A stretch of DNA of 64,000 nucleotides, from positions 1,240,001 to 1,304,000 of the forward strand of contig NZ_CP056087.1 in assembly GCF_001839655.2 (NCBI RefSeq). The letters run 5' to 3'. This stretch comes from Pseudomonas argentinensis (GTDB lineage Bacteria; Pseudomonadota; Gammaproteobacteria; Pseudomonadales; Pseudomonadaceae). A program made the translations under genes and the position numbers. The stretch's first letter is position 1, and each line of letters starts with the position of its first letter. Shown one piece after another: positions 3,918 through 63,995 of this stretch. The notes beneath the pieces are model-generated. The model ran no database searches. It was given only the letters and a program-made list of their open reading frames with translations, and was not told the DNA's origin.

Positions 3918-5693
<1,776 letters not shown>

Positions 5694-17889: not shown

Positions 17890-18294
17890 TCACTTCCAGC
17901 AATCAGCAACCGATGCCGTTCCTGTCTTCGATTTGACTCCCGCCTGGTTCAGACCGAGGTTTGCACATTTGCTATCACGCCTCTGCGCTCCTTTCGCGGT
18001 AGCAGTTAGAGTATAGGTCGAGGCAGTCACATCCCCGATAGTCAGCGTGTAAAACCCGCTGGGTGAATCATCTTTCATACCCAACTTTGCTGCTGTATCG
18101 GCATATGAGTTGTTCTGAGCAAAGAAGCGCTCCTGGCGAGCAGCCGCATCATTGAGCATTGCCATGCCCTCGGTGCGGTTGCCTCGCAGCACATATTCCT
18201 GATAACTCGGGTAAGCGATGGCCGCGAGTATGCCGATGATTGCTACCGTGATCATCAGCTCGATCAGCGTGAAGCCAGTTTCCTGATGTCGCAT
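17890..18294 (-). CDS. pilE: Type IV minor pilin PilE
   Basis: A 134-aa prepilin. A six-residue leader ends at Gly7, then [29 protein letters not shown] N-methylation helix with the Glu at +5. The mature domain has two C-terminal-half Cys residues. It is the last gene of the minor pilin operon, where PilE helps prime pilus assembly at the tip and links PilY1 complexes to PilA. AAGGA lies upstream of the ATG. P. aeruginosa has pilY2 before pilE; no equivalent is seen here. Confidence 0.9.
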
Positions 18295-18339
18295 CTCATG
18301 TCCTTCCTATAGGGCCGGTAGCGCCGGCCCCTTGGTTAA

Positions 18340-21300
18340 TCAAGGGCTGGTAGTGGTTTCCGGGATTACACGCCAGGACTGTCTGCCAATCGAGCCAGGC
18401 CCTGGGCTGACGCCGAGGCATTTGCCATCCGGACCTATCAAACAGGCGCCTGTACCTTCGTTCCCACCTGGGTTATTCACAATAATGAAGCCACCTGCGC
18501 CGCCCGATGTACCGGAAACCACAGAGCCATTATTACTATCCGAAGCGTCCACTTTCCCGTCACCATTAAGGTCGAATACGTTGAATTTCGTACGGCTGCC
18601 AGTGGCGGGGTTCAGTCCGTAGTAAAAGCCGTCTACGCCTGATGCGCAGGGGTCACTGTTCGGTGTACGGGTCGCGACAATAAGTGCTTCACCGAAAACG
18701 ATCATCTTGTCGACGATCCTTTCCCCTCTCAGCGTGTCGCCAACCTTGAGATCCAGAAACCACCCGTACTTTCCGGTGCTTCCCGATGCACCCGTATTCC
18801 AGTTGATTGCGGTTTCACTGATCATGCGTACTGTCTGCGATGTAGTAACTCCGGCATTGGTAAAGGTCGCCGTGGTTGACGAAATACTCTGGGCCTGCAG
18901 ATTCGAGCGAGCGAGAGCAGGCGTGCTGGTTGCGCTTTGTCCAATTGTCTGACGATCCCACACACCATATAGGGTCTGCAACGCCGTGCTTGTCTTGTCA
19001 GTACTCTCGTAATACTTGCCTGTGCCGAAAATGATGATGTAGCCCTGTTTGGACGGGTGTCGCACTACAGAAGGAACTGTCGTTATGGGCTGCACTACGC
19101 CGTCTGCGCTTTTCGCGGTATACAGCGGGGTTCCCCGAAGGATACTCGCATGTTGGCGGCACTGGCTGTTGTACTCTTGTTCAGATTGCTATTAGTCGAG
19201 TCGTACAGATCGAATCGCCACAGGTTGCCGAGTAGGTCTCCGGCGTACGCATAGTCAGCGTTACCGTCACTGTTGTTGTCGACGAGCAAAGGCGTTGAAA
19301 GCCCGTTGGCTGTATTGGCAGTGCCTTGTGCATCAAGCCTTCTGATCAGTGCGCCCGTCTGGATGTTCAGTGAGAACAACACCGCTTTTCCACTGGTTGA
19401 GTTCGGGCTGTCGTATCCGTTGCCGAAGACCGCTGCCCAGGTACCGTTGTGTAGGCGAGCGATGGTTGGAGTACCTATGCCGTAGCCCATGTCACTGGGG
19501 CGACAGGTAGCGATATTTTGCGCCGTACACAGTCCGGTTCCGTCCGCATTCAGCTTGCTGCCGATACTGTCGGTATTGAATTCCCACAGCAGTTTGATTG
19601 CATCTGGGTCGGTTACATCGAGAGCAAATATTTCCCGGCCGCCAGCACCTAGTGTCGCGACCAGCACGGTGCGCCATGCTCCACCAAAGTAAACATCGTC
19701 GACGACAATGGAACCATCTACATAGAACTTATGGTTATCACTGGTTTTGCTGGCATAGTCAGTGGCCGTATAACTTGGCAATTTTGCAATGATTGCAGTA
19801 GGTACGAACGCGAATTTCTCTACGCCAGTAGCCGCATCGAAAGCATGCAGCATGCCGTCGTTGGCACCCACATAAACTTGAGCGCGGCGAGTTTGGGCTT
19901 TGAAGGCAGCGTATGTGCCAGCGCTGCCATCATAGGAGTCTGCCACGTAGCTGAGCTTCTGTGGCTGGGCCACGACTACCGGGCTTGAGCCGACAATGTC
20001 GCCGAGCTTGGGTGCGTTGCTGCGCAAGGTTGCGCAGCCAGTGAGGCTCGAGCAACTTTCGCCCCGAATGACACTTACTCGAGCTGCGCCATAGTTATCG
20101 GTGGTGCCACTGGCGTTTTTGTTGAGCTCTGTCTGCAGATTGACCCCGTTAAACGTTTTATCCGCCAGATTGCTCCAATTGAAGGTCTGCATCTTGGAGG
20201 CGGCAGTGCCTCCTGCCAGATTGATATTACGAGAGGCTGGTATTTTCTCGCTGGCTTTCCAGGCAATCGTCCTAACGCCGGTAGCTGAGACATTTTCTTT
20301 TATCAGGTCGCCAGACCAGTTCTCGATATCGAAGGTCGTTCTGTAAACTGCCTGTGCCGTGGACGTAGAGCCACTCACTGGCTCACGCCCAGCTGCCGGG
20401 CGAGATACCGAAGCATTTCGCTGCGAGAGATCATTGAAGGCCTTGGCCAGTTGATCCTTCAGCGTCAACGCGTTAGTAACCAGGAAATAGTTATCAGGCA
20501 CACCATCCCCTGTGGTATCCCAGTTGGCGGCAGTAGTGCCATATTTGGCCGCGTACCAAAGTGGATCCTTGAGAATCGTAGCCCCGATACCTGTAGCGGT
20601 GAACTGACGATCCGCTGTAGGTGGCAAACCTGTGCACTCGGAGCTGTTTTGGTTGGCGATGCACCAACCTGCCGGTCTGCCGGGTGGAGTGTTAAGGCGA
20701 TAGGAGGTCTGGCCGTCACAGTCACTTCGTTGGCCGCTATTGCTTATACCGTCGCGCAGGTCACATATTTCCAAGTAAAGGCCGTCAGCGTTTGTGCCTG
20801 AAATGGTGTAACCCATATGTTGCTTGGCGCCACCCGCAGCATATTCGGATTTCAGATTTACGTTCAGCTTGCCCGCGTTATCGACCGCCAGAGTATAGAG
20901 CGCAATCGCATCCATATCGAAGTCAGCGCCTTGTTCGCTATCCTCCCAATTGATGCGGAACTCTGCATAAGGGTTGCCATTGTTCACTGTAGGATCGGAA
21001 TTTGTTGGTGAGGTGTTTGCGATCTTCTGAACATAGAAGTCGACCAGTTGGTTGGTAGCCTGGTATTGGTTCGCTGCCGGGTTTTGCACCGACTTCGCAA
21101 ACGGTACAAGCGTGATTTTATTTTCCCCCACCGGGAATTCGATTTTGGGAAATGGCGAGGCCAACGCGACGGCATAGGTCAGCAACGGCTTAGAGCCGCC
21201 AATATTGTTATTGGCTCCAAAACGTGCGACACCTGCCGAGTAATAGGTGCCCTGTTTGCCAGGCTCTTCAGGCGCCAAGCCACGAATGCTGGCTAGTGTG

Positions 21301-23444
21301 TCGATTGTTTTCTGCGTCGGCGCGCTATCCGCGGTGGTGCCGGACTCGCCAATAAATACCGATGTTCCGTGTAGCCCTTCGGTTGCGCCGATTGCATTCG
21401 TTTCAGTGCTGACGTTGAAACTGCTGATAGAGCTGGGATTGCCAGTACCCGTTACCGTGGTAGTCCAATTACTGCCAGGCAATTTCCAGTCATAGTTAGG
21501 ATTGATGTCGCTGAGCACTGTCATTGCCGGAACAGAACAGCTCGGGCGGCCAGCACCTGTAGGGGCTGCGGCATACGGCGGAACCCAATCGGGTTTGGCA
21601 AGACCAAGGCTGGAGTCAGGCGTCGTACCCGAATAGTCATATTCGCTGGTGGGCGCAGTTGCTCCAGCAAAATAGCGCATTGCTTCGTACATCATCTCGG
21701 CGGTGGGTGTGCCCCACATATAGCATGGGTCAGCACTGAGATTAGAGGTTGGGTTCATGTTGTAAGTGCAGCGATCAGTATTGTACTCATAACTGTTGTA
21801 ATTGAAGCCATACGTGCGCAGGCGGTTGATATTGTCGACAATGCCGCTGACGTTGGTGCTGGCTGTCCCGCAGTTTCCGTTCAGGCAAAACTGACCGGTG
21901 CTGGTGGTTAATTCACGTGCGAAACTCTGTACGTTCGTTCTGAGAGTGCCACCGTTAAAGTGCTGCTTGTAAGAGCCCGTCAATAGACCGAACAGCATTC
22001 TTTCTGTCTGGCCATAGTCGTGAAGAATACCGGTTGGCTTGTAGTTGCCATTGGTATATATAGCGCAGTTTGATTCCCGTAGTGCTGCCCTGGATGTGGT
22101 GGTTGATCCTGATCTTGTGTCGTTAGGGCAGGTGAGCACCTGAATGTTGTAGTCTGTACGTGTCGAGGCATCGGCGGTTTCTCCAGGAACTTGCCAGTAT
22201 AAACCCCAGTTATCGCCGCCATCACCTTCCTCATGGCGGAAGGTGATATCGTAGACTCCTGCGTTCAGTGCAATTGTTTGGGAGCGGGTGTCTGTGCCCG
22301 AGCCGTTGCTCCCATGACCACCGTACCAGCCAAAAGTGCTGGTCCCAATTGTTACATCAACAGCATCGTCGCCATCGATGGAAAATTTATAATTTCCATT
22401 TTTGGGTATAATTATTTTTCCTTCAATTCGCGTGATGTAAAAATCGTGGGTGCATGTTTGGCCGCCGGTGGTTCTCACTCCTGCGAATGGATTATTATTG
22501 GAACCAGTGGTGTAAATTTGATCAATGCTCTTGATTCCGCAGCGGCGCGAGGTTGTCCCGTCATTCGTGAACAAAGAATCCATGCCGGCTTTGTTGTTTG
22601 GGTGTGTGCCGTTTGCTTTTGCCCACGTTGTAATCTGCAGGTTTGAGAGGTTAGCAGCAGGAACAAGTGCCCAGCCGTTTTTAGGTCCGGCATTGAGACA
22701 GGTAATTCTTGAGCCTCCGGCATTAACGCATTCATCACCAGCCACCGGACGTTCGATAGACACCCAGTTCCATGCTCGAAGCGGCGTGTTAGTCATTACT
22801 CGCAGCTTTGGTATAGCGTTATCAGATAAGGAGGCAGCGGCAATAAGATGCCGGTAGCCTGTGCTCGGGGCTGATAAAGGCGCGAAATCACTTATGTTAT
22901 AGCCATCGACAGCCTGACTCGTGTATTCCTTTCCCCAGGTATGGGCATCCTGAGGAATGAATGCGCCTTGAAGTACAGTCTCGGATGCGCTATCAGTGCT
23001 TCGATAGCCACCGTAGAGGACCTTCCGAAGAGCGTCCATACGGGACGTGGCCAAGTAGTTGAGGAAGTCTCCACTCCAAGCGTTGGAGCATTGTTTACCT
23101 GTCGCACCGGTGCCTGTTGATACAGGTTCGAATCTGCTGTTCTGATAGGTATAACAGACTTTGGAATTGAAGTAGCCGTAATAGTCTATTACTGAGGTTG
23201 TGACGTTGTTGACGGTTTTGGTTCGATAGCCCTTGTAGCCGATGTCGATAACGCCATCACCATCCAGATCCGAACTATCGTTATAGGCTTCATAGTAGAG
23301 TTTGTGATCACGTCCCATGACAAGCATGTTAAGCGGTGGTACGGACGCGCTGACGAAAATCGGGCTCTGCGCGGGTGCAGCGAGTATATTCGCTGAAAAC
23401 AAAGAGACGCCCAGAGCAAGGCTGGCGATAAGTGTGTTGTTCAT
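18340..23444 (-). pseudogene. pilY1: pilY1, type IV pilus tip adhesin, interrupted by one frameshift
   Basis: The large pilus tip/biogenesis protein, about 1,700 aa if the frame is restored. The ATG at 23444 gives a signal peptide ending ILAA. The first frame stops at 19095, after MRVSFGEPRC; the other frame continues homology as GTPLYTAKSADGVVQPIT. The switch falls at a run of four C (plus strand 19133-19136); one added base would mend it. Features: a DLDGDGVID calcium-type loop (residues 59-67), a PA14-like domain (about 337-422), the C-terminal PilC/PilY1 beta-propeller with DNNSDGNAD, and after the shift DLNGDGKVD. Typical PilY1 is about 1,160 aa, so this is a long form. Whether the shift is real, reversible or a sequencing error is open. 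Confidence 0.85.
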
Positions 23445-23457
23445 GGGGTGCTCCGGG

Positions 23458-24021
23458 TTAGTCGGTATAAAGGCGGACGACAACCGACCGCAGGCAAATG
23501 ACATCTATCGTGCAGCTTGCGGCTGCACTCGAAGCGCTGGAATTGTAGGCTTGGCTGTTTATTTCATAGTATTTGGCCGTGACCCCGCCGCCGCTTCTGC
23601 TCCCGCTTGCTGCGCCATAGGTTGGGTCGATAGCCTGGCTCTCTGCAGCGCCTGCGCCGGTATCTCTGATATACCAGTGCACATTTCTGGACATTGCTGT
23701 CGCACCATCCACCCCGCTATAGGCATGTGCAGTGCTGAAGTCAGTGGTGTAAGTAGTCGCTACACCTTTGATACAGGGGATACTGCCGCACGAGTCCAGT
23801 GGGCTGGCGGATAGTGCGATGCGCCGCTCACCTTCACGCAGCCCCGCCTCGGCCGCGTTGAACAAGCGTTTGCTTTCGATGGTATTGGCAGTTATGCGTG
23901 CCTCCAATGTCGACTCACGCATGCTCGAGATGGCTAAAGCCGTGATGATCAGCAGTAGAATCAAGGCAATGAACAGCGCAGCGCCCCGCTGTTGTCTGGC
24001 TTTAAAGTGATAGCGGCTCAT
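23458..24021 (-). CDS. pilX: Type IV minor pilin PilX
   Basis: A 187-aa prepilin with leader ending at Gly13, followed by a hydrophobic helix AALFIALILLLIITALAIS. There is no Glu at +5, as is usual for the PilX/GspK-like tip subunit. The downstream RxxLFNAAEAGLREGE block is typical of PilX. Its start overlaps the pilW stop by 4 bp, so translation is coupled. It should cap the pilus with PilV, PilW and PilY1. Confidence 0.92.
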   Translation of the reverse strand: MSRYHFKARQQRGAALFIALILLLIITALAISSMRESTLEARITANTIESKRLFNAAEAGLREGERRIALSASPLDSCGSIPCIKGVATTYTTDFSTAHAYSGVDGATAMSRNVHWYIRDTGAGAAESQAIDPTYGAASGSRSGGGVTAKYYEINSQAYNSSASSAAASCTIDVICLRSVVVRLYTD

Positions 24022-24803
24022 GGCATCTGATTCCGTAGCATTACCGTATTCCTGATGATCTGGTACGCACGCCCATTAGTGGGGGTGTTTGCCTCAGAGC
24101 CATACCATTCTTTGTAGGTTTTGAACGCTGCATCTTGGCTGATGTTTTCCAGCGATGTATTCATCAATGCCGAGTACCGCACTGTGCGAATGGACTCGCT
24201 GGCAGCTGGCTCTGCCTTGTAGCTACTTATTGTTCTGCTGCCTGCGGCGCTAACACCATAGTCAAAGCGAAAATCTTCTATACCTTCGATAAGAGTGCCG
24301 CTTTGTGCAGTATCGGATGCACTGCTACTGCAAATTAATTGACGAGCATTATTAATGCTGAGCTTCTCAACGAAAGATACCGCCGGGGTTGTGTAGGGGG
24401 TGACGATAACACTCGCGTTTGCAGGGCGACCATTACCTAAACAGTCAACCTCTGCTGGGTCTCTCGGCTGGAATCTAATACAGATGGTTTTTGCGTCAAC
24501 CCGCTTTATGACTTCTCCAACGTTGAATGCGCATCCGGTAGGCGTGTCCGTCAATGCAGGGAATGCCGTATCCATGCTATCCGTTGGCTCACGGCGATAC
24601 CCTGTTTTTGCCAAGTGCTGTTCAAGTATCTGCATCGTGAACCGGCCGTTTTCCTGGTTCTCGGCCTGGCCTTGTTGAAACAGGTAGTTTTTCTTGTTAT
24701 CGATGTAAATCTGGGTCACGCCGAGAATGAGAAAGCTACTGATCGCCATGGCGACCATCAGCTCGATCAAGGACAAACCTGCCTGCTGTTTCTTGTTCAT
24801 CAT
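24018..24803 (-). CDS. pilW: Type IV minor pilin PilW
   Basis: A 261-aa prepilin: short leader ending at Gly9, then LSLIELMVAMAISSFLILG with Glu at +5. The length and the ENGRFTMQILEQHLAKTGYR stretch fit PilW. It sits between pilV (6 bp upstream) and pilX (overlap). It is part of the minor pilin tip complex. Confidence 0.93.
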   Translation of the reverse strand: MMNKKQQAGLSLIELMVAMAISSFLILGVTQIYIDNKKNYLFQQGQAENQENGRFTMQILEQHLAKTGYRREPTDSMDTAFPALTDTPTGCAFNVGEVIKRVDAKTICIRFQPRDPAEVDCLGNGRPANASVIVTPYTTPAVSFVEKLSINNARQLICSSSASDTAQSGTLIEGIEDFRFDYGVSAAGSRTISSYKAEPAASESIRTVRYSALMNTSLENISQDAAFKTYKEWYGSEANTPTNGRAYQIIRNTVMLRNQMP

Positions 24804-24809
24804 CTGCCT

Positions 24810-25358
24810 CTAGAGCTCGCTGCGCAGCCGGTAACGGCAGATTGTCAGATCGGAGTCGGATGCAGCATTGCTATCGAGGCATTCGCCGCTTTTGACTTTC
24901 CAAGCCAGCTGAATCTCTATCGCCGATCCATTCGAGCTGCAGGTGCCAACCGCAGCCGAGCGGCAAACATAGAACTCACTGTTGAGAATATCGCTAGCCC
25001 CTGGAAGTCGCCTGGCTGCCTCTCTGGCCCAACAGGCCAGTTGCCGCGATGCGATTGTCGAGGTCGTAGCGCAGTTCGCATCCGTTACTGCACCGAAGTC
25101 CGCGCCCTTGGCCTTGTAATAGCCTGAAGTGGACTTGGGCAGGCCGTTGGCGCCAAGGGTCTCATTGAGGTTGGCTCGCATAAGCTCCAGCAGATCATCG
25201 GCCAGCATTGCGGCTGTGTTTCTCTGCACGGAGTCTTGCGTATAGCCGATGGCACGCCCCTGCAAGGCAATCATGCCAAGGATGCCGATGGTGATGAGAA
25301 GGAAGGTGACCAACACTTCGATCATGCTAAAGCCGGTCTGGCGCCTGCGGTTCTTCAT
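24810..25358 (-). CDS. pilV: Type IV minor pilin PilV
   Basis: A 182-aa prepilin with leader ending at Gly9, FSMIEVLVTFLLITIGILGM, and Glu at +5. The block ADDLLELMRANL is typical of PilV. Its start overlaps the fimU stop by 4 bp (ATGA-type). It forms the tip complex with PilW, PilX and PilY1. Confidence 0.92.
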   Translation of the reverse strand: MKNRRRQTGFSMIEVLVTFLLITIGILGMIALQGRAIGYTQDSVQRNTAAMLADDLLELMRANLNETLGANGLPKSTSGYYKAKGADFGAVTDANCATTSTIASRQLACWAREAARRLPGASDILNSEFYVCRSAAVGTCSSNGSAIEIQLAWKVKSGECLDSNAASDSDLTICRYRLRSEL

Positions 25359-25846
25359 GATGTGCAGCTCGTTAATGCGACTGTGTTATTCGCCGCGGTC
25401 TTGCCACGCTGTGAGAGGCGGCTGGAGCCTGTTATGGCGACGGCTACCTCATAACCATTGGCAAAGTCGGTGCCGCTGCAGAGCGTAAACTTCGCCGCAG
25501 CCGATGCCGTGCCGTCGGGTCTGAACGCCACGCTCGTCGGGTTCGCCGAAACGTTCACGGTGTTGGCGGTGAACGAGCGCAGCGTCGTCGTGGTATTGCC
25601 GCTGGTAATACTTGCTGCCCAGACGCCTTGCGTATTGCTGAACGTTACGATGGTGCGGCGCGTCACCGCTTCGCTACGCGCGTAGGCCAGCAAGCTTTGC
25701 AGCTCGGCACTGTCCCCCTGAACACGGTTGTTCTTAATCAGGGATGAAAAACTGGGCAGTGCGATTGCAGCGAAAATACCCAATAGGGCAACCACGACCA
25801 TGAGCTCAATGAGCGTAAAGCCCAGTTGATGGCGATATTTCGGCAT
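25355..25846 (-). CDS. fimU: Type IV minor pilin FimU
   Basis: A 163-aa GspH/FimT-domain prepilin with leader ending at Gly9, FTLIELMVVVALLGIFAAI, and Glu at +5. AYARSEAVTRR is the conserved GspH-type helix. FimU is thought to join the PilVWX-Y1 tip complex to the PilE/PilA shaft. It lies 119 bp after fimT and is translationally coupled to pilV. Confidence 0.9.
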   Translation of the reverse strand: MPKYRHQLGFTLIELMVVVALLGIFAAIALPSFSSLIKNNRVQGDSAELQSLLAYARSEAVTRRTIVTFSNTQGVWAASITSGNTTTTLRSFTANTVNVSANPTSVAFRPDGTASAAAKFTLCSGTDFANGYEVAVAITGSSRLSQRGKTAANNTVALTSCTS

Positions 25847-25965
25847 GAAAAGATTCCCGAATCCTGAGCCTGCATTTTCGCTTTGCTGCTGAGGGCTTGT
25901 CTTAATCCCGTAGACAGACGGATATCCGAAGTGGATGACCGGTTTATAGAGATAGGGCGGGTCGC

Positions 25966-26472
25966 TCAGGACGACTCGGCTATGCAGCAGGCATTGCCTT
26001 CGCTAGGCCTGGCCTGGCGAACACGGCCCTGACGATTTAGGACTAGGTGCCAGCTCGCTATCCCCCCATCACACAATGCGAAGCGCCCGTTACTGGTCGG
26101 ACTGGTGCCATTCGGATGATAGGTAATAGATTTATCCTGCCTGCTCCAACAGAGGTTTTTTCTTGTGTTCAGCTGGTGCCAGTGTAGCGGCGCATCGTCT
26201 GCACTCTTCAGTACCAGCCAATTGCTGCTCCAATCACCATCGCAAATAATCCCGTCCGAGGAACCGCATAGTATGTAGGGGCGATTATTAGTGACGGCAT
26301 GCATCCTGGTTTGAGATAGATGCGAAAGAAGCAAATTACGCAGTGCTTCGTCTTGATTTTTTTGAATGATGCTGCGTAATTCCGGAATTGCTAGGCTCAC
26401 TACAATGCTGAGTACTGTCAGAGTGACCAGCAGATCCACTAACCCTACAGCTTTCTGTTGATCTCTATTCAT
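25966..26472 (-). CDS. fimT: FimT-like minor pilin (GspH family) with atypical cleavage region
   Basis: A 168-aa prepilin, first gene of the minor pilin cluster. The leader ends at Gly10, followed by LVDLLVTLTVLSIVVSLAIP. The Glu normally at +5 is missing; the only acid nearby is Asp at +3. The later block LLSHLSQTRMHAVTNNRPYILC and several Cys fit GspH/FimT proteins. FimT proteins bind DNA during natural transformation in some bacteria; whether this one does is unknown. It diverges from thiO. Confidence 0.82.
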   Translation of the reverse strand: MNRDQQKAVGLVDLLVTLTVLSIVVSLAIPELRSIIQKNQDEALRNLLLSHLSQTRMHAVTNNRPYILCGSSDGIICDGDWSSNWLVLKSADDAPLHWHQLNTRKNLCWSRQDKSITYHPNGTSPTSNGRFALCDGGIASWHLVLNRQGRVRQARPSEGNACCIAESS

Positions 26473-26567
26473 GATGCACCTCCCTATGCGCGTATCATTA
26501 GCGGCCTTCCTGGCTGCTTTTTCTGTTTACACCCTCAGGTGTCACTGTCAAGGCATGCCGTCAGGCG

Positions 26568-27677
26568 ATGGGGTGGGTTGTGCGTACGGATGTAATCGTT
26601 ATCGGCGGTGGGATCATCGGGTTGTTATCGGCGTATCTGCTGGCGGGCGCGGGCAAGCGGGTCACGCTGGTGGATCGCGGGCCGGTCGGGGGAGAGGCGT
26701 CCTGGGCGGGGGGCGGAATTGTTTCGCCGCTTTACCCGTGGCGCTATAGCCAGGCGGTAACGGCCCTGGCGCACTGGTCGCAGGATTACTATCCGGGCTT
26801 TGGCGAGCGCCTGCTGGCGACCACTGGCATTGATCCCGAAGTGCATGTCACAGGGCTGTACTGGCTGGATCTGGACGACCAGGCCGAAGCGCTGGCCTGG
26901 GCGCAACGAGCGAGGCGGCCGCTGCATGAGGTGCCTGTCGAGTCCGCCTATGCCCAGGTCCCTGTACTGGGTGAAGGATTCGAGCGCGCCATTTATATGC
27001 CCGGCGTGGCCAATGTGCGTAACCCGCGGCTGGTCAAGGCGCTGCGAGCCGCCCTGCAGAATTTGCCGAACGTTACGCTGCTTGAACACAGCCCGGTGTT
27101 GCAGTTTGTCCGTGATGACGAGCGCATAATCGGGGTTCGTACCGCTGAGGGCGAGATGCTGGCCGAGCAGGTGGTTGTCGCTGCTGGAGCCTGGAGCGGG
27201 GAGGTTCTGCAGAGCCTCGGGCTGGCGCTGCCCGTGGAGCCGGTCAAGGGGCAGATGATCCTGTTCAAGTGCGCCGAAGACTTCCTGCCGAGCATGGTAC
27301 TGGCTGGCGGGCGTTATGCGATTCCGCGGCGCGACGGGCACATCCTGGTGGGCAGTACGCTGGAGCATGCCGGCTTCGACAAGACACCAACCGATGAGGC
27401 GTTGGCCAGCCTGCGGGCTTCTGCCGAGACGCTGCTACCGGCGTTGCGCGATGCCGAGGTGGTGGGCCACTGGGCCGGACTGCGCCCCGGCTCCCCCGAG
27501 GGCATTCCGTTTATTGGTGAGGTGCCGAAGCATCCGGGCTTGTGGCTGAATTGCGGGCATTACCGCAATGGGCTGGTGCTGGCGCCGGCATCCTGCCAGT
27601 TGCTGGCGGATCTGATGTTGGGACGCGAGCCGATCATCGACCCGGCACCGTACTCACCGGCGGGGCGCTTGCAGTAA
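26568..27677 (+). CDS. thiO: Glycine/D-amino-acid oxidase, ThiO type
   Basis: A 369-aa FAD-dependent oxidoreductase of the DAO family with the dinucleotide-binding motif VIGGGIIGLLSAYLL at the N-terminus and the C-terminal HWAGLRPGSPEGIPFIG block. ThiO oxidises glycine to the imine used for the thiazole ring of thiamine. It normally lies between the pilSR genes and fimT in pseudomonads, as here. The start is uncertain: the ATG at 26568 has only a weak AGGCG nearby, and a GTG at 26580 is possible. Confidence 0.85.
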   Translation: MGWVVRTDVIVIGGGIIGLLSAYLLAGAGKRVTLVDRGPVGGEASWAGGGIVSPLYPWRYSQAVTALAHWSQDYYPGFGERLLATTGIDPEVHVTGLYWLDLDDQAEALAWAQRARRPLHEVPVESAYAQVPVLGEGFERAIYMPGVANVRNPRLVKALRAALQNLPNVTLLEHSPVLQFVRDDERIIGVRTAEGEMLAEQVVVAAGAWSGEVLQSLGLALPVEPVKGQMILFKCAEDFLPSMVLAGGRYAIPRRDGHILVGSTLEHAGFDKTPTDEALASLRASAETLLPALRDAEVVGHWAGLRPGSPEGIPFIGEVPKHPGLWLNCGHYRNGLVLAPASCQLLADLMLGREPIIDPAPYSPAGRLQ

Positions 27678-56622: not shown

Positions 56623-57495
56623 TCAGTTGAAACCCGCGAACCGCAGATAACCTTCGGTAATCTGCTTGCCCCAGAGCAGCGCGATAAAGCCTGCAATGGC
56701 CAGGTACGGGCCAAACGGAATCGGCGTGCTGGTGCTCGCATCACGCAGGCGCAGCATGATCACCCCGAGCACGGCACCGACCACCGAAGACAGCAGAATG
56801 GTCAGCGGCAGAATCTGCCACCCGCCCCAGGCGCCGAGCATGGCGAGCAGCTTGAAGTCGCCATAGCCCATGCCTTCCTTGCCGGTTACCAGCTTGAACA
56901 GCCAGAAGACCGACCACAGGCTCAGGTAGCCTGCCACAGCGCCCCATAGGGCATCTTCCAGGCTGGTAAAGAGCCCGAAGTTATTGGCAATCAAGCCCAG
57001 CCACAACAGCGGCAGTACCAGAGTGTCCGGCAGCAACTGGTGATCGGCATCGATCAGGCTCATCGCCAACAAGCCCCAGGCCAGCACCAGCATGCCTGCC
57101 GCTTGCCAGCCAAAGCCGAAATGCCAGGCGATATAGGCCGAGAGCAGGCCGCAGCTCAACTCGACCAGCGGATAGCGCAGGCTGATCGTCGCCTTGCAGC
57201 CGGCGCATTTGCCGCGCAGAAACAGATAGCTGATGACCGGGATATTTTCCCAAGGGCGGATTTCATGCTGGCAATGGGGACAGCTGGAATGGGGGAGCAC
57301 CAGATTGTAGGTTTCCCCGGTAGGCTCAGCGGGTAATTCCAGTACTTCCCGCGCCTGGATGCGCCAGTCGCGCAGCATCATCTTCGGCAGGCGATGGATG
57401 ACCACATTGAGAAAGCTGCCGACCAGCAGGCCGACGATAAGTGTGCAGAAAACGAAGGCCGGCGTATTGTCGGCCAGGAAGTCGTATATGGTCAT
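56623..57495 (-). CDS. pilD: PilD, prepilin peptidase and N-methylase
   Basis: A 290-aa polytopic aspartic protease. An N-terminal cytoplasmic loop carries the two CxxC pairs (CPHC and CAGC), then the catalytic Asp residues in SLIDADHQLLPD and GMGYGDFKLLA. It cleaves and methylates PilA, the minor pilins and type II secretion pseudopilins. It sits 3 bp from pilC. Confidence 0.96.
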   Translation of the reverse strand: MTIYDFLADNTPAFVFCTLIVGLLVGSFLNVVIHRLPKMMLRDWRIQAREVLELPAEPTGETYNLVLPHSSCPHCQHEIRPWENIPVISYLFLRGKCAGCKATISLRYPLVELSCGLLSAYIAWHFGFGWQAAGMLVLAWGLLAMSLIDADHQLLPDTLVLPLLWLGLIANNFGLFTSLEDALWGAVAGYLSLWSVFWLFKLVTGKEGMGYGDFKLLAMLGAWGGWQILPLTILLSSVVGAVLGVIMLRLRDASTSTPIPFGPYLAIAGFIALLWGKQITEGYLRFAGFN

Positions 57496-57498
57496 GGA

Positions 57499-58722
57499 CT
57501 AGACAACGGAGCCGAGCTGGAAGATCGGAAGGTACATCGCGATGATCAGTCCGCCGACGAGTACGCCAAGTACCGACATGATCAGCGGTTCCATCAGCGA
57601 AGTGAGGCCGTCAACAGCATTGTCCACTTCTGCCTCGTAATAGCTGGCAACCTTGTCGAGCATGGTGTCCAGGGCGCCGGACTCTTCGCCGATAGCGGTC
57701 ATTTGTACGGCCATGGCTGGGAAGGCATTGGTGGAGCGCATGGAGAAGTTCAGCTGCATGCCGCTGGTGACATCCTGCTTGACCTTGGCTACGGCGTTGC
57801 GGAAAACCACGTTGCCGGTCGCGCCGGCAACGGAGTCCAGTGCTTCGACAAGGGGTACGCCTGCGGCGAAGGTTGTCGATAGGGTGCGTGCGTAACGCGC
57901 TACTGCAGCCTTGTAAACGATATTGCCCACGATAGGCGCCTTGAGAATGGTGCGATCAAGGGCATCACGGAATTTCTCCGAGCGTTGTTTGGCCTGCATG
58001 AATGCGTAGCCTGCTCCGATCAGGGCAATCAGGAAAATGAACCACCACTCCTGCAGTCCCTCGGATATGCCGATAACAAAAAGCGTAAAGGCTGGTAGCT
58101 CGGCGCCAAAGCTGGAAAAGACTTCTTTGAACTGCGGCACTACTTTGATAAGCAGGATGCACGAGACAATGATTGCGACTGCAATGACCGCAATCGGATA
58201 GTTCATTGCCTTCTTGATCTTGGCCTTGAGTGCTTCGGTTTTTTCTTTATATGTAGCCACTCGGTCAAGGAGGCTCTCCAGTGCGCCGGATTGCTCACCT
58301 GCATCAACTAGGTTGCAGAACAGGTCGTCGAAATACTGAGGCTTGGTGCGTAGCGCGGCAGCAAAGCTGTTACCTGCAGCTACATGCTGTTTGAGCTCGT
58401 CTACCAGCTTGCGCATACTTGGCTTTTCAACACCATCGGCAATGATGTCGAACGACTGCAGCAAGGGCACGCCTGCTTTCATCATGGTTGCCATCTGCCG
58501 AGCAAACAGGGCGATATCCAGCGGCTTGATCTTCTTGCCGGCACCGCCCAGGCTCATGCCTTTCTTGCGAACCTTTGTTGGATTAATGCCTTGTTTGCGC
58601 AACTGCGCCTTGACCAGAGCCGGGTTCTGGCCGCTGAGCTCGCCCTTGACGATGCTGCCCTTGCGATCCTTGCCTTCCCAGACGAACGTGCTGGTCTTGG
58701 GCGCTTTTGCTGCTGCTGCCAT
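57499..58722 (-). CDS. pilC: PilC, inner-membrane platform protein
   Basis: A 407-aa GspF-family protein with two repeated cytoplasmic domains (about residues 65-185 and 270-390) and three membrane segments. The IALFARQMATMMKAGVPLLQSF block is typical. It is the platform on which PilB turns to build the pilus. Starts 2 bp after the pilB stop. Confidence 0.95.
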   Translation of the reverse strand: MAAAAKAPKTSTFVWEGKDRKGSIVKGELSGQNPALVKAQLRKQGINPTKVRKKGMSLGGAGKKIKPLDIALFARQMATMMKAGVPLLQSFDIIADGVEKPSMRKLVDELKQHVAAGNSFAAALRTKPQYFDDLFCNLVDAGEQSGALESLLDRVATYKEKTEALKAKIKKAMNYPIAVIAVAIIVSCILLIKVVPQFKEVFSSFGAELPAFTLFVIGISEGLQEWWFIFLIALIGAGYAFMQAKQRSEKFRDALDRTILKAPIVGNIVYKAAVARYARTLSTTFAAGVPLVEALDSVAGATGNVVFRNAVAKVKQDVTSGMQLNFSMRSTNAFPAMAVQMTAIGEESGALDTMLDKVASYYEAEVDNAVDGLTSLMEPLIMSVLGVLVGGLIIAMYLPIFQLGSVV

Positions 58723-58724
58723 GG

Positions 58725-60428
58725 TTAATCCTTGGTCACGCGGTTGACTTCCTCAAGGCTGGTCACGCCTTGCATGGCCTTTACAAGGGCCGAGGTGCGC
58801 AGGTCGTTAAAGCCGTCTTTGCGCATTTGCGCGGCAATATCGATGGAGTTGCCTTCCTCCATGATAATCCGCTGCAGGCTCGGCGTGTTTTTAACCACTT
58901 CATAAATACCGACACGACCTTTATAGCCGCCCTTGCAGTTTTCGCAGCCAACCGGGCCGTAGATCTTGAAGCTACCTATCTTGTCTTCCGGGAAGCCTTC
59001 CTCCAGCAATGCTTCGCGCGGGATATCGACTTCCTTTTTGCAGGACGAACACAGCTTGCGCGCCAGGCGCTGGGCAATGATCAGGTTGACCGAGGTGGCA
59101 ATGTTGAACGAGGGCACACCCATATTACGTAGGCGAGTTAGCGTCTCCGCAGCGCTATTGGTGTGCAGGGTCGACATCACCATATGGCCGGTCTGCGCGG
59201 CCTTGATGGCGATGGAGGCGGTGTCCAGGTCACGAATCTCACCGACCATGATGATATCCGGATCCTGACGCAGGAAGGCGCGCAGTGCCTGGGTAAAGTC
59301 CATCCCCTGTTTGGGGTTGACGTTGACTTGGTTGATGCCTTCCAGGTTGATTTCCACAGGGTCTTCAGCCGTGGAAATATTCACATCTGGGGTATTGAGA
59401 ATATTGAGGCCGGTATACAGAGATACCGTCTTGCCCGAGCCGGTCGGGCCGGTCACCAGGATCATGCCTTGCGGCTGCTTGAGGGCGTTGAGGTACAGTT
59501 CCTTCTGGTCTTCCTCGTAACCCAGGGCGTCGATACCCATCTGTGCGCTGGCAGAATCGAGAATCCGCATCACGATCTTCTCGCCCCACAGCGTCGGCAA
59601 GGTGTTGACGCGGAAGTCGATGGATTTGCTCTTGGAAATCTTCATCTTGATACGGCCGTCCTGCGGCTTGCGCCGCTCGGAGATATCAAGGCCGGCCATG
59701 ACCTTCAGGCGCGCGGAAATGCGCGGTGCCAGCTGGATAGGCGGGCGCGCCGTCTCGTGCAGGATGCCGTCAGTACGAAAACGCACGCGGTAAGCGCGCT
59801 CATAGGGCTCGAAGTGCAGATCCGAGGAGCCACCTTTGATGGCATCGAGCAGCATCTTGTTGACGAAACGAACCACCGGGGCATCATCGGCGTCCTGGCC
59901 ACCACCGTCGCTCTTTTTGTCGTCATCGACCGACTCGGTTTCCAGGCCATCGAGATCAACGTCGGCCATGTCTTCCAGCCCCGTATGGCCGGTATCGAAA
60001 AACTTATCGATGGCGTCGCCCAGCTTGTCGTCCTCAACCAGCAACGCTTCTGTAGAGAGTCCTGTGCTGAACTGGATATCGGTAACGACTTGGTGATTGG
60101 AGGGATCCGAGATGCCTACGAACAGCTTGTTGCCACGGCGCCATAAGGGCAGCGCGCGATGCTGGCGCACCAGCTTTTCACTGACCAGATCCTTGGGCTG
60201 ACTTTCCTTGTCTAGCGCGCTGAGGTCGAAATAAGCGATGCCAAATTGATCCGCAGTCAGCTCTGCCAGTGCGCGACTTTTCACCAGCTTGTTCTGAGCC
60301 AGGTAATGAACCAGAGACAGTTTGTTTCGCTTAGCTTGTACTTGGGCCTGTTGAGCGGCCTTCTCGTCCAGCAGCTCAGCTAGCACTACCTGCTTGGCCA
60401 GGCCGGAAAGGGGGATGCTCTCGCTCAT
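58725..60428 (-). CDS. pilB: PilB, pilus assembly ATPase
   Basis: A 567-aa hexameric ATPase. N-terminal T2SSE/MshEN-like region, Walker A TGPTGSGKTVS, Asp box and Walker B DPDIIMVGEIRD, and a zinc-type tetracysteine (CSSC...CENC). It drives pilus extension with PilC. The gene diverges from pilA as usual in Pseudomonas. Confidence 0.96.
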   Translation of the reverse strand: MSESIPLSGLAKQVVLAELLDEKAAQQAQVQAKRNKLSLVHYLAQNKLVKSRALAELTADQFGIAYFDLSALDKESQPKDLVSEKLVRQHRALPLWRRGNKLFVGISDPSNHQVVTDIQFSTGLSTEALLVEDDKLGDAIDKFFDTGHTGLEDMADVDLDGLETESVDDDKKSDGGGQDADDAPVVRFVNKMLLDAIKGGSSDLHFEPYERAYRVRFRTDGILHETARPPIQLAPRISARLKVMAGLDISERRKPQDGRIKMKISKSKSIDFRVNTLPTLWGEKIVMRILDSASAQMGIDALGYEEDQKELYLNALKQPQGMILVTGPTGSGKTVSLYTGLNILNTPDVNISTAEDPVEINLEGINQVNVNPKQGMDFTQALRAFLRQDPDIIMVGEIRDLDTASIAIKAAQTGHMVMSTLHTNSAAETLTRLRNMGVPSFNIATSVNLIIAQRLARKLCSSCKKEVDIPREALLEEGFPEDKIGSFKIYGPVGCENCKGGYKGRVGIYEVVKNTPSLQRIIMEEGNSIDIAAQMRKDGFNDLRTSALVKAMQGVTSLEEVNRVTKD

Positions 60429-60671: not shown

Positions 60672-61097
60672 ATGAAAGCTCAAAAAGGTTTTACTCTCAT
60701 CGAGCTGATGATCGTGGTTGCGATCATTGGGATCCTCGCCGCCATCGCACTGCCTGCTTATCAGGATTACACCACTCGGACCAAAGTTTCTGAAGGGTTA
60801 ACGCTGGCCTCGGCTGCGCGTACTGCTGTTTCTGAGCATCGTCTTTCGATGAATGCATGGCCGGCAACCAGTGCTGCCGCTGGTTACACCAGCCCCAATA
60901 CTAAATATGTAAATAATATCACCATCGGTAGCGGTGTAATTACTATTCAGTATAAGGCCGCAGCAGGCGTGGCGGCTAACTCCACGCTTGTTCTTTCTCC
61001 GATTTCTGCGACCGGTGGCGCAATCGATTGGAAGTGTAAGCCTGGCACCACTACTGCCGTAGAAGCCAAGTATCTGCCTTCTAACTGCCGCACTTAA
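60672..61097 (+). CDS. pilA: PilA, type IV major pilin
   Basis: A 141-aa prepilin. Leader MKAQKG, then [24 protein letters not shown] with Glu at +5. Two C-terminal Cys (C122 and C139) form the disulfide loop of Pseudomonas pilins. It ends NCRT, so the last residue is a hydroxyl residue as in glycosylated group I pilins, where it is Ser. TGGAGAA lies 4 bp before the ATG. Driven by a sigma-54 promoter. Confidence 0.95.
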
Positions 61098-61111
61098 TAA
61101 GGTGGCTGTCG

Positions 61112-61141
61112 CCCCGGCCTCTTTAGGCCGGGGTTTTTTTT
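61112..61141 (+). terminator. Rho-independent terminator after pilA
   Basis: Stem CCCCGGCCT/AGGCCGGGG with loop CTTT and eight T. It limits read-through from the strongly expressed pilA into the downstream transferase gene. Confidence 0.92.
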
Positions 61142-61158
61142 GGGGGGGGATGTGCTCA

Positions 61159-63099
61159 ATGGTTTTCAGTGTTTTAGGCAAAACTCAAGAGCGCTGGCAA
61201 TGCCTCTTTTTATTTGGTCTTCTGATTATTTCTTATATGGTGTACGTCCCTGGTCTATCTGGGGATTTTATTTTCGACGACTTCCCTAATTTGGCTCCAC
61301 TTGCGCAATCGGGTGCTGGTGGAGGTTGGGATGCATTTCTAAATTTTGTATCTGGCGGCTTTTCCGGCCCAACTGGTAGACCTGTCGCGCTGGCAAGTTT
61401 TTTTATTGATGACAACGCATGGCCCAGCCAGGCAATTTATTTTAAAGAAACCAATCTCTATATACACCTGTTGTGCGGATTGACTTTAGCTTGGTCTACT
61501 TTACTGCTGATGCGCTTATGGGGAGTGTCGGAGCATCAGGCAGTCTGGATCGCGTTGTTGAATATGGGAATATGGCTTCTGCATCCCATGATGGTCTCGA
61601 CCACTTTATATGTGGTTCAGCGTATGGCCCAGTTGGCAGCCCTGTTTATGTTCGCTGGCCTGGCTGGGTATCTGTATGGGCGGTTGCTCTTGCAGCGGCG
61701 CCCTCGAGCTGCCTATCTATGGATGTCGTTTTCATTGTTGCTTGGCACTCTGCTAGCTACCTTGAGTAAGGAAAATGGCGCCTTGCTTCCATTGCTGGTT
61801 TGTATTGTTGAATTTTGTACATTATCCCCTCTTGAACGGTCGGTACCTGATCGTCGCTGGTCGCTGGTTTTTATTTGGTTACCTGCGCTGGCCGTATTCT
61901 TCTATCTACTTACGCGGATTGATTTTTCACCGACGCTATGGCCTGAGCGCCCGTTCAATCAGCCAGAGCGTTTGATGACGGAAGCACGTATCCTCTGGGA
62001 TTATCTGTTCCAGCTATGGGTGCCTCGAATAGAGGGCTACGGACTATTTCAGGATGGTTATCCCATCTCAAGGGATCTGCTGTCGCCTGCGACGACATGG
62101 ATATCAATATTTTCTCTGGCAGTGCTACTGGCTGTAGCTGTTCTGGTGCGTACTAGATATCCTGCTTTCAGCCTGGCTGTATTGTTCTTCCTAGCGGCGC
62201 ACTTGATTGAGTCCAGCGTGATTGGTCTCGAATTATACTTCGAGCACCGAAATTATGTGGCGGCTGCTTTTATGTTTATGCCATTGGTCGTTGGTTTACT
62301 GAGTTTAAAAAAGTATTTGAGTGGCTTTGCCATGTTCTTGTTGTGTGGGGCTCTGCTTTCTTTGCTTGCGGCATTTGCTTGGCAGCGCGCTACCTTGTGG
62401 GGCGATACAAACCGACTTCAGAGTTATTGGGCAGCTACGACCAGCGAGTCGGCACGGGCGCAAAATTACCTAGCCATTCAACTTTTCGAGCAGGGGAAGG
62501 TTGAAGAGGGATTTTGGTTTCTTGAGCAAGCTAGCCAGCGTCTGCCGGAAAGCTCGTTGCTTAGTATGCAGTGGCTACTGCAGCGCCTTAGATTCAATGT
62601 TGCTTCGAGCGCAGATTTCGAGCATGTGGCCCAGCAGCTAGCCAGGCAGCGTTTTGATGCTCAGACTGTCGCCGGAATGCGAGCAATTACCGAGTTTTTG
62701 ATTCAGCGCGATGGCCGCTCTGACTACAGGCAAGCAATGTTAGGCTTGTTGGAAAAGCTGAATGATTATCCTCGTTTTCAGCAGGCTTCAGTATATGCTC
62801 GTTTTTCGCCTTATTTCGAGGGGTTGTTGCTACTGGCTGAGCGGGATCTAGGGCGCGCTATGCCGGCCCTCTCGGAGGCGATTAAATTGCATACCGATGC
62901 GGATGTTGCATTTTCAATAGTTGCACATGTAGGAAGCGCAGGATATCCAGCCGAAGCATTGCAGTTGCTGGGGCAAATGGAAAGTATCTACATGTCGAGT
63001 TCAAGGAATGGCATTGGTTCGGTGTCTGCAAGCCGTGAGGTTGAAATGGCACGATTGAAACAGGTGCTTCGTGACGATGTATCGGTTAATAAGTTTTAA
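61159..63099 (+). CDS. Large polytopic GT-C-type membrane protein with helical repeat tail, probable pilin glycosyltransferase
   Basis: A 646-aa protein with about ten membrane helices over residues 1-425, then a soluble helical, TPR-like tail (about 430-646, e.g. NYLAIQLFEQGKVEEGFWFLEQASQRLPE). The first periplasmic loop has an acidic DFIFDD (36-41), as in GT-C sugar transferases that use polyprenyl-phosphate sugars. Base composition is clearly lower in GC than the pil genes. It follows pilA directly and precedes a polyprenyl-phosphate glycosyltransferase, like the TfpO and TfpW pilin modification genes of P. aeruginosa, so pilin is a likely target. The ATG at 61159 is chosen because earlier starts fall in the pilA terminator. 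The exact family is not certain. Confidence 0.7.
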   Translation: MVFSVLGKTQERWQCLFLFGLLIISYMVYVPGLSGDFIFDDFPNLAPLAQSGAGGGWDAFLNFVSGGFSGPTGRPVALASFFIDDNAWPSQAIYFKETNLYIHLLCGLTLAWSTLLLMRLWGVSEHQAVWIALLNMGIWLLHPMMVSTTLYVVQRMAQLAALFMFAGLAGYLYGRLLLQRRPRAAYLWMSFSLLLGTLLATLSKENGALLPLLVCIVEFCTLSPLERSVPDRRWSLVFIWLPALAVFFYLLTRIDFSPTLWPERPFNQPERLMTEARILWDYLFQLWVPRIEGYGLFQDGYPISRDLLSPATTWISIFSLAVLLAVAVLVRTRYPAFSLAVLFFLAAHLIESSVIGLELYFEHRNYVAAAFMFMPLVVGLLSLKKYLSGFAMFLLCGALLSLLAAFAWQRATLWGDTNRLQSYWAATTSESARAQNYLAIQLFEQGKVEEGFWFLEQASQRLPESSLLSMQWLLQRLRFNVASSADFEHVAQQLARQRFDAQTVAGMRAITEFLIQRDGRSDYRQAMLGLLEKLNDYPRFQQASVYARFSPYFEGLLLLAERDLGRAMPALSEAIKLHTDADVAFSIVAHVGSAGYPAEALQLLGQMESIYMSSSRNGIGSVSASREVEMARLKQVLRDDVSVNKF

Positions 63100-63143
63100 T
63101 TAGTGGCGTAGTTGGATTTATCTGGCAGCTCTAAGGGGTACAG

Positions 63144-63995
63144 ATGTTGTTAACGATTGTTTTGCCTGCAAAGAATGAATCTGGAGCAATAGGACGCACC
63201 TTAATGCGTTTGCGTGATTTGCTGCCTCAGGCAGAGCTCCTTGTCGTTAATGATGGGTCGAGCGATGGTACTGCTGAAATTGCAAGGGAGGCTGGCGCTC
63301 AGGTGATCAATCATCCTTATTCCAAAGGGAATGGCGCTGCGATTAAAACCGGTGCGCGTGCTGCTCGTGGTGATGTAATTATATTTATGGATGCCGACGG
63401 TCAGCATGATCCAGCGGACATTTCCGTCATGCTGGCTCTGATAGAGCAGGGGCATGATATGGCTGTAGGAGCCCGTCAGGAAGGATCGCAAGCTAGCCTG
63501 GTACGTGGCTTGGCCAATAAGTTTTACAATCGTCTGGCAAGCTGGATGACTGGGCATAAAGTGGAGGATCTGACCTCTGGTTTTCGTGCCGTGCGCGCGG
63601 ATAAATTTCGCGAGTTTCTTTATTTATTGCCCAATGGGTTCTCCTACCCTACTACCAGTACAATGGCATTTTTCAGAGCAGGTTACTCTGTTGCATATAC
63701 CCCAATTCACGCAGCTAAACGTGTCGGCAAAAGTCACATACGTCTTCTGCGTGATGGGTCGCGCTTCTTGTTGATCATTTTCAAGATCGGCACATTATTC
63801 TCACCGTTGAAGGTCTTTGCGCCGGTCGCTCTGCTCATGTTTATGCTGGCCTCGGTTTGGTATGGCTATACGCTATACAATTTTGGTCGCTTCACCAATA
63901 TGAGTGCGTTGCTTTATAGTGGATCGGTAATGGTCTTCTTGATGGGGCTTATCTCTGAGCAGATCACGGCACTGATGTATAGGGACAAGGACTGA
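63144..63995 (+). CDS. GT2 family glycosyltransferase, polyprenyl-phosphate sugar synthase type
   Basis: A 283-aa enzyme: GT-A domain opening MLLTIVLPAKNESGAIGRTL with the nucleotide-sugar site VVNDGSSDGTAE and the DxD motif MDADGQHDP, followed by two C-terminal membrane helices (about 220-275). This is the DPM1/GtrB layout, moving sugar from a nucleotide to undecaprenyl phosphate. It would charge the lipid donor for the GT-C protein just upstream. AAGGGG precedes the ATG. GC is low like its neighbour. The sugar is unknown. Confidence 0.85.
   Translation: MLLTIVLPAKNESGAIGRTLMRLRDLLPQAELLVVNDGSSDGTAEIAREAGAQVINHPYSKGNGAAIKTGARAARGDVIIFMDADGQHDPADISVMLALIEQGHDMAVGARQEGSQASLVRGLANKFYNRLASWMTGHKVEDLTSGFRAVRADKFREFLYLLPNGFSYPTTSTMAFFRAGYSVAYTPIHAAKRVGKSHIRLLRDGSRFLLIIFKIGTLFSPLKVFAPVALLMFMLASVWYGYTLYNFGRFTNMSALLYSGSVMVFLMGLISEQITALMYRDKD

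Follow-up and report, generated by a model that had tools for sequence, protein, structure and literature searches.

We analyzed a 64,000-nucleotide stretch of Pseudomonas argentinensis DNA (contig NZ_CP056087.1; hereafter the window), which covers positions 1,240,001-1,304,000 of a 5,076,637-bp single-contig genome, and focused on two genes that follow pilA, the gene for the major type IV pilin. The locus carries coaE, pilD, pilC, and pilB on the minus strand (gene names assigned from the sequences). Next to them, the plus strand holds pilA, followed by a terminator-like hairpin and the genes for a 646-residue membrane protein that we assign to the GT-C glycosyltransferases and for a 283-residue family 2 glycosyltransferase (GT2) (Table 1). 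Both open reading frames (ORFs) and the hairpin are found in the order given in the original prediction, an earlier reading of this DNA. The GT-C ORF begins at ATG 61159, and a further in-frame ATG lies at 61150. The hairpin is the best-paired terminator-like site of the region, which holds 10 such sites compared to 4.9 +/- 2.2 in shuffled sequences. A terminator at the same position has been reported for pilin genes with accessory genes after them (PMC11841053).

Table 1. Features of the pilA locus, with positions in the window.
Feature	Positions	Strand	Basis or comment
pilD, pilC, pilB	56623..60428	-	ORF list; divergently oriented to pilA, shown as pil locus context
pilA, major type IV pilin, 141 aa, proposed acceptor	60672..61097	+	Pfam Pilin E 5.7e-21, N_methyl 1.1e-10
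Terminator-like hairpin between pilA and GT-C gene	61111..61134	+	10 pairs, 8 GC, T-run
GT-C pilin glycosyltransferase candidate, 646 aa	61159..63099	+	11 predicted transmembrane (TM) segments, C-terminal helical-repeat tail
D40-D41, catalytic-type DD after first TM segment	61276..61281	+	Invariant 30/30; DD 27/27 in TfpW alignment
K204-E205, by eye the TMTC KE motif (M4)	61768..61773	+	Invariant 30/30; 27/27 in TfpW alignment (PMC7801869)
R364 in EHRNY, by eye the Arg of TMTC M7 and TfpW HERF	62248..62250	+	Invariant 30/30; 27/27 in TfpW alignment (PMC7801869)
C-terminal helical-repeat (TPR-like) tail, residues about 430-646	62446..63096	+
GT2 polyprenyl-phosphate sugar synthase candidate (DPM1/GtrB/ArnC type), 283 aa	63144..63995	+

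The GT-C protein and its relation to TfpW

The predicted structure of the 646-residue protein contains a GT-C core resembling STT3 and AglB, a match that stems from VIA-align, which re-aligns Foldseek's own candidates only. STT3 and AglB gave the highest scores, AftD and AftB also matched, and 14-3-3 proteins among the structural matches were read as generic helical resemblance. Foldseek alone found nothing at E<=0.001; TPR proteins ranked highest, and Pmt4 came third at E 0.011. A PDB sequence search with the single protein found no match at E<=1, and the same search with a family profile gave 26 matches at E<=10, led by TPR proteins (E 5.8e-5 and weaker).

The top scores of STT3 and AglB, together with a polysaccharide-type gene cluster adjoining the locus (described below), would fit the en bloc transfer of a pyrophosphate-linked glycan (an O-unit, for example) to pilin by an oligosaccharyltransferase in the manner of TfpO or PglB. 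We consider this unlikely: the structural scores are no guide to whether a transferase handles monosaccharides or oligosaccharides (Pmt4 scores within 2 of STT3), the O-antigen-ligase/WaaL-like domain typical of O-oligosaccharyltransferases (O-OTases; PMC12645811) was not found in the window protein, and such an enzyme would leave the GT2 without a role. The sole match to the Wzy_C/O-antigen ligase domain in the genome lies about 372 kb away.

Three sites are invariant across the family (Table 1), and D40-D41 can be matched by eye to TMTC motif M1 (PMC7801869). The DFIFDD loop singled out in the original prediction is conserved in its final DD; its first Asp is mostly Gly among relatives. The helical-repeat tail described there is helical in our predicted structure, and probably lies in the periplasm. 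TPR_14 is the sole Pfam family matched by the window protein at E<=10 and falls below threshold (17.5 bits against a cut-off of 23.5); it is matched by 28 of 30 family members at E<=10, with a best E of 2e-7.

A pilus-assembly accessory protein or chaperone without catalysis, like TfpY or FimB, would occupy the same chromosomal position, and TfpY promotes pilus assembly, and group III pilins are unmodified (PMC11841053). The GT-C fold and invariant GT-C-type residues, the conserved GT2 partner, and a size far above that of TfpY and TfpZ (235-245 aa) make such a role highly improbable for the window protein.

The closest relative of known function is TfpW, which adds D-arabinofuranose (D-Araf) to pilin in Pseudomonas aeruginosa group IV / P. 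paraeruginosa (PA7, Pa5196) and is described for one Pseudomonas clade. Aligning the two families with hhalign gave E 9e-22 over 548 columns, compared to E 0.02 or more for controls; the tails alone aligned more weakly (65.1%, E 6e-5). Pairwise BLASTP of the window protein with TfpW gave 23% identity over 231 aa (E 2e-5). When scored with a hidden Markov model (HMM) of each family, all 120 window-family relatives listed and all 121 TfpW-family proteins scored best with their own, so by sequence comparison the window family is a large sister family of TfpW, homologous but separate.

The original prediction held that TfpW lacks both an obvious TPR tail and a dedicated lipid-sugar synthase. The first of these points does not hold at the level of structure prediction: TfpW, from the genome that we take to be PA7, is 641 residues long with 11 predicted TM segments, and its model shows a helical tail, although a search with Pfam TPR found no match in it. 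The second stands, with PA7 carrying TfpX and a remote D-Araf pathway instead (PMC12369383). The system is therefore not of a wholly new kind, as that reading had suggested, and its adjacent GT2 is a real difference; we read it as a large TfpW sister family with a lipid-sugar synthase next door. No published TPR tail of TfpW turned up in literature coverage that lacked preprints and key TfpW work, nor, in coverage without preprints, did a published pilA-linked cassette of a GT-C/TPR protein and a GT2.

Several aeruginosa-type pil loci carry other accessory genes after pilA. One encodes a second TfpW-family protein directly after pilA (L277, 2532-4415; TfpW HMM E 1.7e-144). Two further loci (L287, 2476-5582; L288, 3164-6257) hold a pilA-linked pair, a 641-646 aa protein with no Pfam match and a GT2-like protein of 384-386 aa, that neither the TfpW HMM nor the window-family HMM matches. 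Eight accessory proteins were scanned from 20 pil loci of the aeruginosa-type genus. At least 4 of the 20 (L275, L276, L278, L280) encode a Sulfatase-domain protein of 575-651 aa after pilA, one with a sub-threshold EptA/EptB N-terminus; judging by their domains, these are candidate pilin phospho-form transferases.

Conservation of the gene pair at pil loci

To place the gene pair in its relatives, we read 60 loci chosen by hand for contig room among the matches listed, the best 80 of 568 matching places found by an alignment search in one-genome-per-species data, and 16 Pseudomonadaceae regions. The latter come from a family-level search that matched 20 genomes, of which the window's own and three weak ones were left out. 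After dropping one locus (L052, in which no ORF >900 bases reached E 1e-15) and removing repeats, 150 distinct loci remained; lower-scoring relatives are under-sampled in these counts, and the window's own locus is excluded. Sequences of the pilD/pilC/pilB region served as queries, and we set the limits of adjacency ourselves, at <=500 bp upstream for a pilin gene and <=1 kb downstream for a GT2 gene.

The GT-C gene adjoins pilA, or has pilB, pilC, or pilD in the same stretch, in 134 of 150 loci. Of the outcomes that the original prediction said would refute it, those within reach of sequence analysis did not occur. Counting loci with room for the feature in question, a pilin gene lies upstream of the GT-C gene in 106 of 142, a GT2 gene downstream in 100 of 144, and both together in 87 of 137. 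Of the pilin-adjacent loci with room, 87 of 104 have a GT2 gene after the GT-C gene, as against 8 of 33 others. The complete set of pilin, GT-C, and GT2 genes occurs in Acinetobacter, Comamonas, Lampropedia, Azonexus, Hydrogenophaga, Marinobacter, and Halopseudomonas loci. For five of the 16 loci not assigned to a pil locus, the available sequence upstream is <500 bases; in another (L058), a pilin gene lies 691 bp upstream.

Arrangements vary. More than one GT-C gene is present in 26 of 150 loci, and in 23 named loci, many from Woeseiaceae, the stretch includes pilB, pilC, or pilD but pilA is not adjacent. In the seven of these examined in detail (L150, L157, L162, L169, L180, L184, L187), mostly Woeseiaceae metagenome-assembled genomes, the GT-C gene lies on the coaE/pilD side of pilC-pilB with neither pilA nor GT2 adjacent, and in L157 the GT-C gene occurs in tandem (gene names assigned by eye). 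One locus (L215, 6438-10302) has a second small pilin gene between the GT-C and GT2 genes.

Common across the class, the GT-C gene is rare and patchy, though not unique, in the window's genus. Of 369 genomes sampled from the class, 111 matched, five of them at E > 1e-6. A draw from the genus gave 3 matches in 398 genomes: the window's own, one 47% homologue, and one weak fragment with 3 stops. A family draw, from a different sample and with an alignment as query, gave 20 of 398, three of them weak; nine of these 20 belong to the window's genus (its own genome, two weak matches, and six further strong ones). An initial scan of named genomes with a single-protein query returned 20 stretches that fit the pattern, none confirmed as a relative, and was repeated with an alignment.

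The original prediction took the low GC content of the two genes as a sign of transfer. Their GC content is indeed low, at 0.488 and 0.487 for the GT-C and GT2 genes compared to 0.617 window-wide. As proof of transfer this is weak, because pilA (0.509), pilC (0.555), and pilB (0.567) are low as well and the GT-C genes of relatives tend the same way, averaging 3.5 points under the pilB of their own locus (range over 57 loci, -4.4 to +16.5 points). The patchy distribution is better evidence. Elsewhere in the window, positions 18001-27000 form another low-GC stretch, at 0.50-0.57 per kb compared to mostly 0.60-0.67 around it.

We compared pairwise identities, with permutations, over 30 single-copy cassettes with pilB in the stretch (the window's own included) and over 77 cassettes; the sequences are related, and such correlations show co-variation, not contact. 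In the set of 30, GT-C distances correlated with those of PilA at r 0.80, GT2 at 0.58, and PilB at 0.40, and partial correlations given PilB were 0.77 for GT-C/PilA and 0.46 for GT-C/GT2 (permutation p 0.001 each). Across the 77, the correlation of GT-C was 0.60 for GT2 and 0.55 for PilA, so only the smaller set shows GT-C tied more closely to PilA. Mean pairwise identity in the larger set was 63% for GT2, 46% for PilA, and 32% for GT-C. Given these identities and the co-variation, the simplest reading is that a fairly constant donor enzyme may serve a transferase that changes with its acceptor.

A candidate pathway for pilin glycosylation

The GT2 protein matches Pfam Glycos_transf_2 (E 1.6e-31), carries DAD at residues 83-85, and has two predicted C-terminal TM segments. 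It thereby combines the GT2 domain, DXD motif, and GtrB-type C-terminal TM segments by which polyprenyl-phosphate sugar synthases are recognized. Its PDB relatives are of ArnC type (9.4e-15), dolichol-P-mannose synthase (5mlz, 9.3e-12), and sll0501 (4e-9); it stays under every NCBIfam equivalog cut-off, the best being AglJ at 116 of 325 bits. By sequence it groups with ArnC, dolichol-P-mannose synthase, and GtrB, which load sugar on polyprenyl phosphate. In two aeruginosa-type genomes (L207, 5374-7339; L208, 7920-10778), GT2 is followed directly by a UDP-GlcNAc 2-epimerase-like gene and one more gene. The epimerase assignment, checked against Pfam in L207 only, hints at the donor sugar in those two genomes.

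The homology to TfpW, along with AftD and AftB among the structural matches, could also mean that the GT-C protein is a D-arabinofuranosyl transferase fed by a remote polyprenyl-P-Araf pathway, with the GT2 serving some other role. That reading is very unlikely: the adjacent GT2 is conserved at pilin-adjacent loci and is of DPM/GtrB/ArnC type, and a genome search for the pathway with PF04030 only gave a single borderline match (23.2 bits against a cut-off of 23.1), in a 463-aa ORF whose neighbors are by eye not dprE2- or ubiA-like.

For a flippase, the GtrA family has no match anywhere in the window's genome. Just past the window (genome about 1304233-1305503; positions 4234-5504 of our extract L002) lies a gene for a Wzx-like flippase, identified by Pfam Polysacc_synt, that is broken into two overlapping ORFs (4234-5223 and 5109-5504; 329 and 131 aa). 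In other Pseudomonadaceae loci (L115, L121, L135, L211, L214, L217), GT2 is followed by an unbroken relative of 412-433 aa, making seven distinct loci of this family, the window's included, with a same-strand Wzx-like gene after GT2 (E < 1e-80 to the L217 query). L115, a P. argentinensis locus, combines this unbroken gene with pilin, GT-C, and GT2 genes. Among the loci of relatives with room, 16 of 149 showed a flippase gene no more than 6 kb away.

Directly downstream, a minus-strand polysaccharide-type cluster (L002 5430-12116) encodes, by Pfam, a GT2, a methyltransferase, a UDP-GlcNAc 2-epimerase, and a UDP-sugar dehydrogenase, plus two further ORFs that by eye resemble glycosyltransferases. 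With such a neighbor, the gene pair might modify O-antigen or exopolysaccharide as gtr seroconversion systems do, and a lipid-sugar synthase with a GT-C enzyme is the layout of those three-component systems (PMC11127046). This is quite unlikely in view of the placement of relatives at pil loci, the closer tracking of PilA than of PilB by GT-C distances, and the action of TfpW, the relative of known function, on pilin.

Taken together, sequence, predicted structure, and analogy suggest that the GT-C and GT2 proteins probably form a pilin-glycosylation cassette. The fold, the conserved residues, and the conservation of the cassette at the pil locus lend support to the earlier proposal of one lipid-linked pathway onto PilA. 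Weighing against it, the function is drawn by analogy from TfpW, a distant relative. In this pathway, GT2, working at the cytoplasmic face, would load undecaprenyl phosphate with one sugar taken from a nucleotide donor, and a flippase, to which we assign no gene, would turn the lipid-sugar across the membrane. On the periplasmic side, the GT-C protein would take the sugar off polyprenyl phosphate at D40-D41, K204-E205, and R364 and place it on Ser/Thr of membrane-held PilA before assembly, with the TPR-like tail docking the pilin. PilA is the likely acceptor because pilA is the usual neighbor and TfpW modifies pilin; from its mature N-terminus on, PilA of this genome has 28 Ser/Thr residues. 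The tail is a plausible docking arm because the TPR domain of FlmG binds a filament subunit (PMC7591256).

If the pathway operates as proposed, glycosylated pili would be predicted for species of the seven genera listed above. We advance as a real but tentative possibility that this GT-C/TPR family with its own lipid-sugar synthase is the commonest pilA-linked glycosylation machinery of the class, ahead of TfpO and TfpW, and a bacterial counterpart of TMTC O-mannosylation. On this tentative reading, one conserved donor enzyme would serve a GT-C protein that diversifies together with the pilin it recognizes, and a pilA cassette that moves between genomes would provide a swappable pilus sugar coat, for example against pilus-specific phages. 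The sugar is directly testable because the donor enzyme is adjacent and well conserved, and the system would allow study of the part that a TPR tail plays in the choice of protein acceptor in bacteria. Its interest rests on its breadth, the same predicted tail in TfpW, and this testability.

Comparison with known systems

By analogy, the cassette would act like TfpW and, by architecture, like the eukaryotic TMTC O-mannosyltransferases. With TfpW, the window protein shares its place directly after pilA, a length of about 640 aa, 11 predicted TM segments, a GT-C core, the DD/RP/KE/R residues, and a helical tail; the families are about 20% identical, and where PA7 has TfpX after TfpW and its D-Araf pathway elsewhere, the window has a GT2 (PMC12369383).

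The TMTC family (GT105) resembles the window family in architecture. TMTC proteins are 11-TM GT-C enzymes with a TPR tail on the extracytoplasmic side and a polyprenyl-P-sugar-type donor, a layout that is predicted for the window family too, where the tail would probably be periplasmic and the donor of the same type; the acceptors differ. Motifs of human TMTC1-4 include DD, SHKSYRP, RxD, KE(T/Q)xxT, and ERxxY (PMC7801869). By eye against this published list, the window family has DD, RP, KE, and Arg (M1, M2, M4, M7), whereas RxD (M3) is lost (R155-M-A157) and kept in TfpW (R153, D155). DUF1736 has no match in the window protein (Pfam, E<=10); our Pfam scan of GT-C relatives takes in 25 of 49 families among the matches listed. 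A genome search for DUF1736 (PF08409) as a TMTC test matched 0 of 299 genomes and no control either, and was uninformative.

The three-component systems (GtrABC; GT136/MATE pentofuranose) likewise pair a lipid-sugar synthase with a GT-C enzyme that uses polyprenyl-phosphate-sugar donors on the outer side (PMC11127046), and some relatives of the cassette have a Wzx/MATE-type gene. Here, however, the constant neighbor is a pilin gene and not an O-antigen locus, and the adjacent flippase gene is broken. TfpO/PilO, TfpM, and PglL also glycosylate pilin in the periplasm, and TfpO and TfpM are pilA-linked. TfpO, TfpM, PglS, and PglL carry O-antigen-ligase/WaaL-like domains (PMC12645811), whereas a Pfam scan of the window protein finds no Wzy_C/WaaL-like domain. 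Finally, the Caulobacter flagellin glycosyltransferase FlmG also joins a TPR domain to a glycosyltransferase, but is a cytoplasmic GT-B enzyme with an unrelated catalytic domain.
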